Source: a virus. Taken from it: a stretch of DNA of 52,149 nucleotides. Where the stretch lies: positions 1 to 52,149 of the IMG/VR virus record IMGVR_UViG_3300018432_000017. One strand, 5' to 3'. A program made the position numbers and the translations under genes. Below are positions 30,333 to 33,904 of the stretch, piece by piece (the first letter of the stretch is position 1; every line of letters begins with the position of its first letter). The notes beneath the pieces are model-generated. The model had not been told where the DNA came from and did no database searches. It was given only the letters and a program-made list of their open reading frames with translations.

Positions 30333-33300
30333 CTACTCCGGGTTGATAACAAACATTTGCTGGACGTACAGGCTCGCACCGAAGCCGCCCTTGCTCTTCC
30401 TGGCCTCGACGTACAGCACGTCCGTCCCGAGCCGCAGCCTCTCGATAGCGGCCTTGAACTTCGGGTAGTTGAACCGGGTGACCCGCACGTACACATCTTC
30501 ATCCCCGTCGTCCTTGCAGTGGATGACGCAGGAGGTGGGGAGGTCCGGCCGGTCAATCGACGCGCGGATCTCCTCGACGCTCTTGCCGGACCGAGCCCGC
30601 TCATCCTCGAAGATGTCCTTGTACTCCTTCCGCCCCGGCACGCCCATCCAGCGGAGCGAGGTTCCGCCCTCGGCTTCAAGGATCCCGTCAGAGTTCATAT
30701 CCGGCATAGGCAACGGGATCTCGCCGCTACGGATCGACTTCCGGACCTCCGCGAGCGCGTTGGCAATCTTGTCGACCCCAAACGGGTCCTCCGCCTCCGC
30801 GAAGGTCCGAAAGCTCTGGATCGTCTTGGAGCCGATGCCCCGGACCTCCAACAGATCCTCGAAGCCCTTAATCGGCTTCTCCCGTGCGTGCGCCACGATC
30901 CTGTCCGCAGTTACCGCTCCGACCCCCGGCACCTGTAGCCAACCGGCTAGCACACTTCCCTCGGGTGTTACCGACCAGTCCGCCTCCGACCGCGCTGGAT
31001 CGAGCGGGATGACCGAGATCCCGTGCCGACCCGCGTCCTTCAGCAGAGCGTGCAGTGTCGCCTCCGAGTTGGCCCCTCCGCTCGCGTTCCGGAGCGCAGC
31101 GGCGTAGAACGGGGCGGGGTGATAGACCTTGAACCACATGCACCAGAAGGCGATCATTGAGTACGACACGCAGTGCGCAACGTTGAAGGCATAGGTAGCG
31201 GCGGTCACGAGCCGGCCCCAGATCTTGTGGGCGGTGTCCCGGTCGATCCCGTGGAGTCGAGCCGCCCCCGCAGCGAAGCTATCCGCGCTCTCGTTGAACT
31301 TAGCCTCACCGAGCTTCTTGGAGATGATCTTCCGGATCTCGTGGACCTCTTCGACCGGGAGCCCTCCGATGATCTCCAGGATCTTAAGGATCTGCTCCTG
31401 GTAGATGATCTCGCCGTTGGTCGCCTTCGTTAGCTCATCAATGATCGGATGGAAATGCTTCTTCTCCGCCCGGCCAAACTTGACGTTGATGTAGTCGCCG
31501 GTGGTGCCCGAGAAGAGGGGTCCGGGGCGGGACATCGCATTCACCGCCGCCAGCTCCATGAAGTCGTTCGGCTTGACGTCCCGGTTCACGAGCCGCGTTG
31601 CGCGACCCTCCCACTGGAAGACGCCGATGACGTCGTTGCGGCGGAAGGCTTCCATCACCTTCTCGTCGTCCATCTTGATCCGGTAGAGGTCTTCCAGGGT
31701 AAGGCCGGCGAGGTCCAGTGCCGCCCCGAGCATCTCCATAGTCGAGAGCCCGAGGAAGTCCACCTTCAGCAACCCAAGGTACTCCGCGTCATACTTGTCA
31801 ACGGCGACAACGGTTACCGGGTGCCCGCGCACCTCCTTCGCATACGAGGCAGTGATCTCATCCAGGTGCGCATTCGTCACCACGAGGCCGGCGGCGTGGA
31901 CATTGAGGCCCCGGTAGTCACCTTCGAGGTCCGCAGCCTTCCAGAGGGCGGGATACCGCTCGAACACGTCCTTCACTACGGGGAACATCTCGACGGTATC
32001 GGCTAGCGTGAAGTCAGCGCGGGAGTCTCCGCCCGAGCGCTCGATGAGCATGCCCTTGACGGTCTCCGCCTCAAACTTTGGGACCTCGTGGACCCGCGCT
32101 ACGTCATCAATCGAGTTCCGCCCCCGGTACCGGACGTAGTTGGCGAGGTTGCCGACCGAGCCGGCGCCGTACCGCCCTTCGAGGAAGGTCCGAATCTCAT
32201 GCCGGCGGTTGGACGCGAAGTCGAGATCGATATCAGGGATATCCGTACGGGTCGGATCGATGAACCGCTCGAAGTACATGAGCGGGTATTCCATAGGATC
32301 GATCTCGGTGATGCGCAACAGATAGCACACGAGCGAGGCCGCAGCCGAACCTCGGGCGGGACCCACCAGCACGCCCGCCTCCTTCGCGAAGCGGGTTGCG
32401 TCCGCCGTCATGACGAAGTAGTCGATGAAGTCCTTTGCCTTGATATCACCCATCTCCCGGTCGATCCGGTCCTTGTACTCCGCTGCGTGCTTGACCATTC
32501 GCTGGTTGCCCTGCCGGACCCGGTAGCTCCACCCCTCCCGCATCCACGCCCAGATCAGCTCCTCCGAGGTCGCCCCAGGCATTACCTGCTCGACTGGGAA
32601 CCGCAGCAGCTCCGCCTTCGGGAGGATCACGTTACACCGGTCGGCAATCTCTACCGTCGAGCGAGCCGCCTCCCGCGCTCCGGCTAGGGAAAGTCCGGTG
32701 GCGCGTAGTCGATCGATAACCAGGCGGTCAGAGGTCGGGTGAGTGAGCCGGATGTCATACTCCCACCCCTCCATCTGTCGGGCGACGGTATTATTGCCCC
32801 GGTGCGCCGCATGTAGGATGACCTGAATTTCGTTGTCATTGGGTTGAGGATAATGAACATCTGCCGTCGCGGCAAGCGGAATCCCCAGGCGCGCTCCCAT
32901 ATCTTCAAAGGCCGGGTTGAGCGTCCGGGTGCGCTCCAACTCGGGGAACATCTGCGTTTCGAGATAGAAGCGGTCACCGAAGATGCTCTTGAACTGCGAG
33001 GCCACGCGCTCGGCGCGACGGAGAGAGGCTTCCTCCTCTGGGATCGTCTTACCGCCCAGCAGCGAGCATGACAGCATTGAGTCGGCACACCCAGAGAGAA
33101 CCACCAACCCTTCGCTGTGATCCCGAAGCATTGCCCCGTCAACCGTTGGCCAGTAATAGAACTTCTCCGCCCAGCTACGGCTGACAATCCGGTTGAGGTT
33201 CGCATACCCCTCCTGGTTCTCCGCGAGGATGGTGAGGTGGAACTTCCTCTGGGTTTTCGGCTCCGGCTGAAAGTAGGCTTCAAGCCCGAAGAGAGGTTTG

Positions 33301-33476
33301 ATGCCGACCTTCCGGCAAGCCTTCTCGTGTTGAGGGTGCGACGAGACATTCCCGTGCTCCGTAACCGCTTGCGCCGTCATGCCAAGCTCGGCACTCCTCA
33401 GCGCGTGCTTGTAAGGAGTGCCGTGCCCGTCTCCGAATGAAAACGTGGTGTGGTGATGTATCGATACGTACTTGAT
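30333..33476 (-). CDS. dnaE: DNA polymerase III alpha subunit (DnaE-type replicative polymerase)
   Basis: 1047 residues if the start is the ATC at 33476; 1015 from the first ATG at 33380. The PHP domain motif IHHHTTFSFGDG lies upstream of that ATG and in frame, so the protein almost certainly starts earlier. Catalytic motifs: GPARGSAAASLVCYLL (about 370-387) and PDIDLDF (about 414-420), then KVDFLGLSTMEML, the third acidic strand. Near the C-terminus a helix-hairpin-helix (VPGVGAVTADRIVAH, VRGIGSKTIQSF) and an OB-fold-like tail follow. It should copy the phage genome. Start codon discussed as a finding. Confidence 0.93.
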   Translation of the reverse strand: MKYVSIHHHTTFSFGDGHGTPYKHALRSAELGMTAQAVTEHGNVSSHPQHEKACRKVGIKPLFGLEAYFQPEPKTQRKFHLTILAENQEGYANLNRIVSRSWAEKFYYWPTVDGAMLRDHSEGLVVLSGCADSMLSCSLLGGKTIPEEEASLRRAERVASQFKSIFGDRFYLETQMFPELERTRTLNPAFEDMGARLGIPLAATADVHYPQPNDNEIQVILHAAHRGNNTVARQMEGWEYDIRLTHPTSDRLVIDRLRATGLSLAGAREAARSTVEIADRCNVILPKAELLRFPVEQVMPGATSEELIWAWMREGWSYRVRQGNQRMVKHAAEYKDRIDREMGDIKAKDFIDYFVMTADATRFAKEAGVLVGPARGSAAASLVCYLLRITEIDPMEYPLMYFERFIDPTRTDIPDIDLDFASNRRHEIRTFLEGRYGAGSVGNLANYVRYRGRNSIDDVARVHEVPKFEAETVKGMLIERSGGDSRADFTLADTVEMFPVVKDVFERYPALWKAADLEGDYRGLNVHAAGLVVTNAHLDEITASYAKEVRGHPVTVVAVDKYDAEYLGLLKVDFLGLSTMEMLGAALDLAGLTLEDLYRIKMDDEKVMEAFRRNDVIGVFQWEGRATRLVNRDVKPNDFMELAAVNAMSRPGPLFSGTTGDYINVKFGRAEKKHFHPIIDELTKATNGEIIYQEQILKILEIIGGLPVEEVHEIRKIISKKLGEAKFNESADSFAAGAARLHGIDRDTAHKIWGRLVTAATYAFNVAHCVSYSMIAFWCMWFKVYHPAPFYAAALRNASGGANSEATLHALLKDAGRHGISVIPLDPARSEADWSVTPEGSVLAGWLQVPGVGAVTADRIVAHAREKPIKGFEDLLEVRGIGSKTIQSFRTFAEAEDPFGVDKIANALAEVRKSIRSGEIPLPMPDMNSDGILEAEGGTSLRWMGVPGRKEYKDIFEDERARSGKSVEEIRASIDRPDLPTSCVIHCKDDGDEDVYVRVTRFNYPKFKAAIERLRLGTDVLYVEARKSKGGFGASLYVQQMFVINPE

Positions 33477-33509
33477 GGTTATCGCCTCCGGTCGGGAAGC
33501 CTACTGCCT

Positions 33510-33707
33510 TCAGAACTCGAAGTGTCGCCTAAAGATGATCCAGTGGCAGCCCTTGTCGGTATTGATCCAAATGCCATTGATCTTCCAGGGGCGAGTTTGT
33601 CCCTTCAGAACCGCGCGACCCTTCCTCTCAGCAAAGCTGAAGCCGATCCCCTTACGGAGCATGAAGTACGGCTTGCCATTCGGCATGACCTCGTGCGTGA
33701 TCTTCAC
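33510..33707 (-). CDS. Small basic protein of unknown function
   Basis: 65 residues, beta-rich and basic (FSFAERKGRAVLKGQ, WIIFRRHFEF). ATGA-coupled to the LuxR-type gene. Its stop and an in-frame TAG at 33501-33503 close the frame ahead of dnaE, which defines how far upstream dnaE can start. Function unknown. Confidence 0.6.
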   Translation of the reverse strand: MKITHEVMPNGKPYFMLRKGIGFSFAERKGRAVLKGQTRPWKINGIWINTDKGCHWIIFRRHFEF

Positions 33708-33904
33708 TCAATCCAGCCTCTCCGGAGCGCGAGCGCTACCGCAGCCGTCCGGCTCTGCAGGTGGTGCTTCATCATGAACTTCCGGAGGTGCGTCTTGACC
33801 GTGTCGGCAACAACGAACATCTTCCGGGCCGTTTGCTCGGTGGACAGTCCGTCCGCTAAATGCTGCAGGACCATCTTTTGCTGCTCGGTAATCTCAGGGT
33901 TCAC
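33704..33904 (-). CDS. LuxR/GerE-type helix-turn-helix protein
   Basis: 66 residues from GTG 33904 in a GTGA overlap. The whole protein is one GerE-like DNA-binding domain: LTEQQ-like start, LADGLSTEQTARKMFVVADT, then VKTHLRKFMMKHHLQSRTAA. It lacks any sensory or receiver domain, so it would act as a stand-alone transcription factor or as a partner of a host factor. Target unknown; position just before dnaE suggests early-gene control. Confidence 0.8.
   Translation of the reverse strand: MNPEITEQQKMVLQHLADGLSTEQTARKMFVVADTVKTHLRKFMMKHHLQSRTAAVALALRRGWIE

Follow-up and report, generated by a model that had tools for sequence, protein, structure and literature searches.

A predicted AUC start codon in the dnaE gene of a phage metagenomic contig

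Where does translation of a phage polymerase gene begin when its conserved 5′ end contains no ATG, GTG or TTG? This question is raised by a single IMG/VR virus record, a metagenomic contig of 52,149 bases that was analysed in its whole length and is here called the window.

The dnaE reading frame and its 5′ end

The window encodes a DnaE-like DNA polymerase III alpha (30333–33476, on the minus strand, as are all the window features discussed below) of 1,047 amino acids if begun at the ATC at 33476, with PHP, Pol3 alpha, finger and HhH domains. Pfam models PF02811, PF07733 and PF17657 matched its PHP, Pol III alpha and finger domains in that order, and the helix-hairpin-helix is also present. 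Read from the ATC, the product is about 50% identical over its full length to the DnaE proteins of Mycobacterium, Nocardia and Streptomyces phages, and a full-length alignment with four phage DnaE proteins supports its assignment to the actinophage type. The product is also related to solved bacterial DnaE, and the bacterial genomes that we searched gave remote DnaE only. Judged by its sequence, the predicted gene product is a complete DnaE of the actinophage type.

The dnaE frame is open from an in-frame TAG (33503–33501) to the stop at 30333. A second in-frame stop, the TGA at 33512–33510, terminates an upstream ORF of 65 amino acids (33510–33707) that shares the dnaE frame and has no Pfam match. 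A further ORF of 66 amino acids, two genes upstream of dnaE (33704–33904), matches the LuxR-family DNA-binding domain (GerE, PF00196). Across the junction the minus strand reads 5′-TTC TGA AGG CAG TAG GCT TCC CGA CCG GAG GCG ATA ACC ATC AAG TAC GTA TCG ATA CAT CAC CAC ACC ACG TTT. No ATG, GTG or TTG occurs in any frame of this strand between the upstream stop and 33385, where an out-of-frame TTG is the first such codon. The first in-frame canonical codon is the ATG at 33380–33378 (Met33), 32 codons downstream of the ATC, and the ORF list begins dnaE there. The candidate initiation codon, ATC at 33476–33474, is preceded at a distance of 8 nt by a predicted Shine–Dalgarno sequence, GGAGG (33489–33485). 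An ATA at 33482–33480, only 2 nt after the GGAGG, is a less likely near-cognate start, and another in-frame ATA, at 33461–33459, is dnaE codon 6. Other near-cognates, a CTG at 33401 and ACG codons, all lie past the HxH motif.

Codons 2–32 (33381–33473) carry PHP motif 1 (H7-x-H9, D16). Compared with the nearest relative, L013, they are 71% identical, whereas identity over the remainder of the protein is 67%, and they differ at 8, 8 and 20 sites at codon positions 1, 2 and 3, respectively, with 15 synonymous codon changes; six other relatives gave a similar pattern. Because these codons are conserved to the same degree as the remainder of the protein and differ mostly at third positions, they appear to be translated, and on this comparison they are under protein-level selection. 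Such conservation would not, however, reveal a recent loss of the start codon. H7, H9, D16, H41, E66, H80, C130, D206 and H208 align with the nine PHP metal-site residues of Taq DnaE; all nine are present, and all are invariant in the alignment with the four phage DnaE proteins. Three of them, H7, H9 and D16, are encoded upstream of the ATG at 33380, so a start at that ATG would break the PHP metal site. The preliminary description of this DNA had reported that dnaE lacks an in-frame ATG, GTG or TTG ahead of 33380 and that the 32 preceding codons encode the opening of the PHP domain; both claims were borne out, and its coordinates for the ATC, ATA and TAG, together with the 8-nt spacing of the GGAGG, proved correct on re-reading.

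Start codons of relatives and initiation signals

We compared the window with about 90 related loci and annotated phages. Start codons were tallied in the 94 loci that were not cut by a contig end, and 92 relatives had a readable N-terminus. In the alignment the ATC sits precisely where the relatives have their start codon: 79 of the 94 have a canonical codon in it (ATG in 62, GTG in 15 and TTG in 2), and 12 further loci have one up to four codons upstream. All 92 readable relatives have a canonical start at the column or within about four codons upstream of it, and none has an AUN codon alone. In Mycobacterium phages Leopard (L112) and Aikoy (L113), the ATG is in the frame of the broken 5′ segment of dnaE. 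One locus, L062 (5989–6003), shows ATC at the start column, but four codons before it, downstream of a Leopard-type HNH gene, stands an ATG in the same frame. The nearest relative, L013 (67% amino-acid and about 71% DNA identity), has GTG at the column. A canonical start at the conserved N-terminus is thus usual for actinophage DnaE, although it does not define the family, and the window has ATC in its place. We rejected a conserved non-canonical dnaE start, given the canonical starts of the 92 relatives. An exact search of IMG/VR with the start region found no near-identical strain, although records very near the window may be missing from that search. The match of the ATC with the relatives' start column takes the observation beyond chance.

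Shine–Dalgarno strength was scored as pairing with the 3′ end of 16S rRNA over positions −18 to −3. The score was −10.8 kcal/mol before the ATC, −5.4 before the ATA at 33482 and −6.4 before the ATG at 33380. Among the relatives the median was −6.0, and only 7 of 92 equalled or exceeded the strength of −10.8, four of these being copies of one cassette. The ATC therefore has a strong Shine–Dalgarno sequence at normal spacing. We found no special RNA structure at the start, where folding was unremarkable (z = −0.27). The window contains no tRNA genes, which ruled out an unusual initiator tRNA encoded by the phage. Among the other window genes with relatives we found no second non-canonical start, so the odd start is not a habit of this phage; the minus-strand 'upstream homology' that we inspected as a possible sign of phage-wide odd starts was either the shadow of an overlapping gene or a trivial extension.

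A start position at the ATC is well supported, since the ATC aligns with the relatives' starts, codons 2–32 are constrained and the Shine–Dalgarno sequence is strong. Ribosomes would start dnaE at AUC 33476–33474, which would be decoded by initiator tRNA as fMet to give MKYVSIHHHTTFSFGDG..., and the strong GGAGG 8 nt upstream would enable initiation at this codon, probably at an efficiency well below that of AUG. The position of the ATC, the reading frame, the conservation of codons 2–32 and the predicted Shine–Dalgarno strength are direct observations. A genuine ATC that serves ribosomes as their starting point is the best-supported reading of this sequence, and we consider it fairly probable.

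The other readings differ in what they make of the base and of the sequence around it. The real phage may have a canonical start, with one wrong or minority base at 33476–33474 in the contig, and to this we assign a lesser but appreciable probability. All relatives start canonically at the column or close to it, including the GTG of the 67%-identical L013, ATC is a single substitution away from ATG, and one IMG/VR contig is the sole record of the AUC. Against an error, dnaE and the other window genes with relatives are unbroken, with no frameshift noticed, and the consensus looks accurate; a random error that happened to hit the start codon of one of about 70 genes is improbable, and the unusually strong Shine–Dalgarno sequence fits a real weak codon. 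The preliminary description had offered an AUC start and a misread base side by side. Its AUC position is now backed by alignment, constraint and Shine–Dalgarno strength, and the misread base keeps a minority share.

If the base is real but the start has been lost, translation could begin at the ATG at 33380 and yield a DnaE without the first PHP strand. An AGGAG lies about 13 nt before this ATG, and in Gordonia phages Ranch, Patos and Xenia2 and Mycobacterium phages Leopard and Aikoy dnaE is broken after codons 10–14 and the annotated starts omit the HxH motif. We nevertheless regard this as unlikely: the shortened protein would lack H7, H9 and D16, a third of the metal site, even though codons 2–32 are fully conserved, the Shine–Dalgarno sequence there is weaker and its spacing too long, and only 63 of 87 relatives have an ATG at the Met33 position, which makes it no conserved start. 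Production of DnaE by read-through of the TGA and TAG from the 65-amino-acid ORF, or by frameshifting or bypassing, would draw on the shared frame. It is very improbable given two stops within four codons, no fusion of this ORF to dnaE seen in a relative, the lack of a canonical start nearby in any frame, a strong Shine–Dalgarno sequence directly before the ATC and unremarkable RNA folding. We attach just as little weight to initiation at the ATA at 33482. AUA starts do exist in bacteria, as in infC and ccpN of S. aureus (PMC13009471), but this ATA lies only 2 nt from the GGAGG and it is the ATC that occupies the relatives' start column.

As for what an AUC start might do, the preliminary description suggested that it limits polymerase output; a regulatory role has no comparative support because the codon is not conserved, and regulation is speculative. 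In one such scheme the AUC would be a selected throttle, in which an IF3-sensitive AUN codon combined with a strong Shine–Dalgarno sequence makes polymerase output track the state of the host translation machinery; we think this improbable.

Interrupted and split dnaE genes in related phages

In at least four lineages among the related phages, dnaE is interrupted after codons 10–16 by a short insert that usually opens with an in-frame stop codon. The insert is TAGCC in Leopard (L112:967–1010; between ...CAC TCT and ACT TTC), TGAAC in Aikoy (L113:975–1025; between ...TCC TAT and GGC GAT), TAGGTGGCC in Gordonia phages Ranch, Xenia2 and Patos (L108:2803–2860, L109 and L110; between ...TTC TCC and TAC GG) and TAGGCAG in the IMG/VR locus L084 (6000–6060; between ...TTC CAA and GAC GGT). 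L037 is also among the loci with an interrupted 5′ end. In the short relative L007 (2378–2700), dnaE carries two additional bases following HHHS as well as an intein-like insert near residue 765, and upstream of it is a small HNH-like ORF that has no Pfam match. Directly upstream of dnaE in Leopard, Aikoy and the Gordonia group is a gene that matches Pfam HNH endonuclease families, with a score under the curated cut-off in the case of Leopard. In these phages the 5′ segment of dnaE differs from that of a sister phage (Onyinye, Zany) by synonymous recoding, and the stop codon comes directly after it. The association of HNH genes with breaks is not absolute, because in L051, L062 and L063 a Leopard-like HNH gene precedes a dnaE that is intact. 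A self-splicing intron was rejected as the cause of the breaks, as no Rfam match was found.

The broken genes resemble the cassette of phage T4 gene 60, in which a homing endonuclease accompanies an untranslated, ribosome-bypassed insert with a stop codon beside the take-off codon (review PMC5009743). As an alternative to a bypass-like cassette, the phages with broken dnaE may make DnaE without the first PHP strand.

The gene is also divided elsewhere. In about 27 of the 89 loci, the PHP part (ending at about residue 295) lies in a different ORF from the polymerase part or is separated from it by an insert (L005, L006, L047, L048, L051, L053–L057, L060, L062–L069, L073, L077, L079, L081, L083, L084, L086 and L088). 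The split falls at the domain boundary, at residues of about 287–311, often with a small gene between the parts. Apart from the 5′ interruptions, this split and the intein-like insert of L007, no breaks of the dnaE frame were seen among the 89 loci.

Comparison with known start codons

If real, the codon described here would be a rare natural AUC start, and one in a phage replicative polymerase. Gene callers restricted to ATG, GTG and TTG, as was the ORF list used here, would drop the first 32 residues along with the first PHP metal-binding motif, and the enzyme would then be misdescribed as lacking that motif. The dnaE start would also be a cheap test case of how far a strong Shine–Dalgarno sequence rescues a third-position mismatch in actinobacteria.

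Bacteria very rarely use AUC as a natural start codon. Initiation at AUC is low but measurable, and a related codon, AUU, starts infC of E. coli. Our search of the literature for phage AUC or ATC starts found nothing relevant. Initiation in E. coli, relative to AUG, is 58% for GUG, 30% for UUG and less than 1% for CUG (quoted in PMC11497404). In Staphylococcus aureus, genes that naturally start at AUU or AUA (AUA in infC, AUU in cvfC1 and AUA in ccpN) have extended Shine–Dalgarno sequences, and these starts yield about 10% of the expression obtained with AUG (PMC13009471).

In its domains, its N-terminus and its identity of about 50%, the window's DnaE is like those of Streptomyces phage Rooney, Mycobacterium phage KandZ, Nocardia phage P3.1 and Gordonia and Microbacterium phages, which differ in having ATG, GTG or TTG at the window's ATC column or a few codons away. 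With the AUN starts of bacteria it shares a third-position mismatch to the initiator anticodon, a coding gene and a strong Shine–Dalgarno sequence, and it too is an intact gene with no ATG, GTG or TTG at a conserved N-terminus. The bacterial AUN codons, however, are conserved and were shown experimentally, whereas the phage AUC is read from one contig, is not conserved among relatives and stands in a replicative polymerase gene. Taken with these likenesses and differences, the dnaE start is a probable further case of the known AUN start codons.
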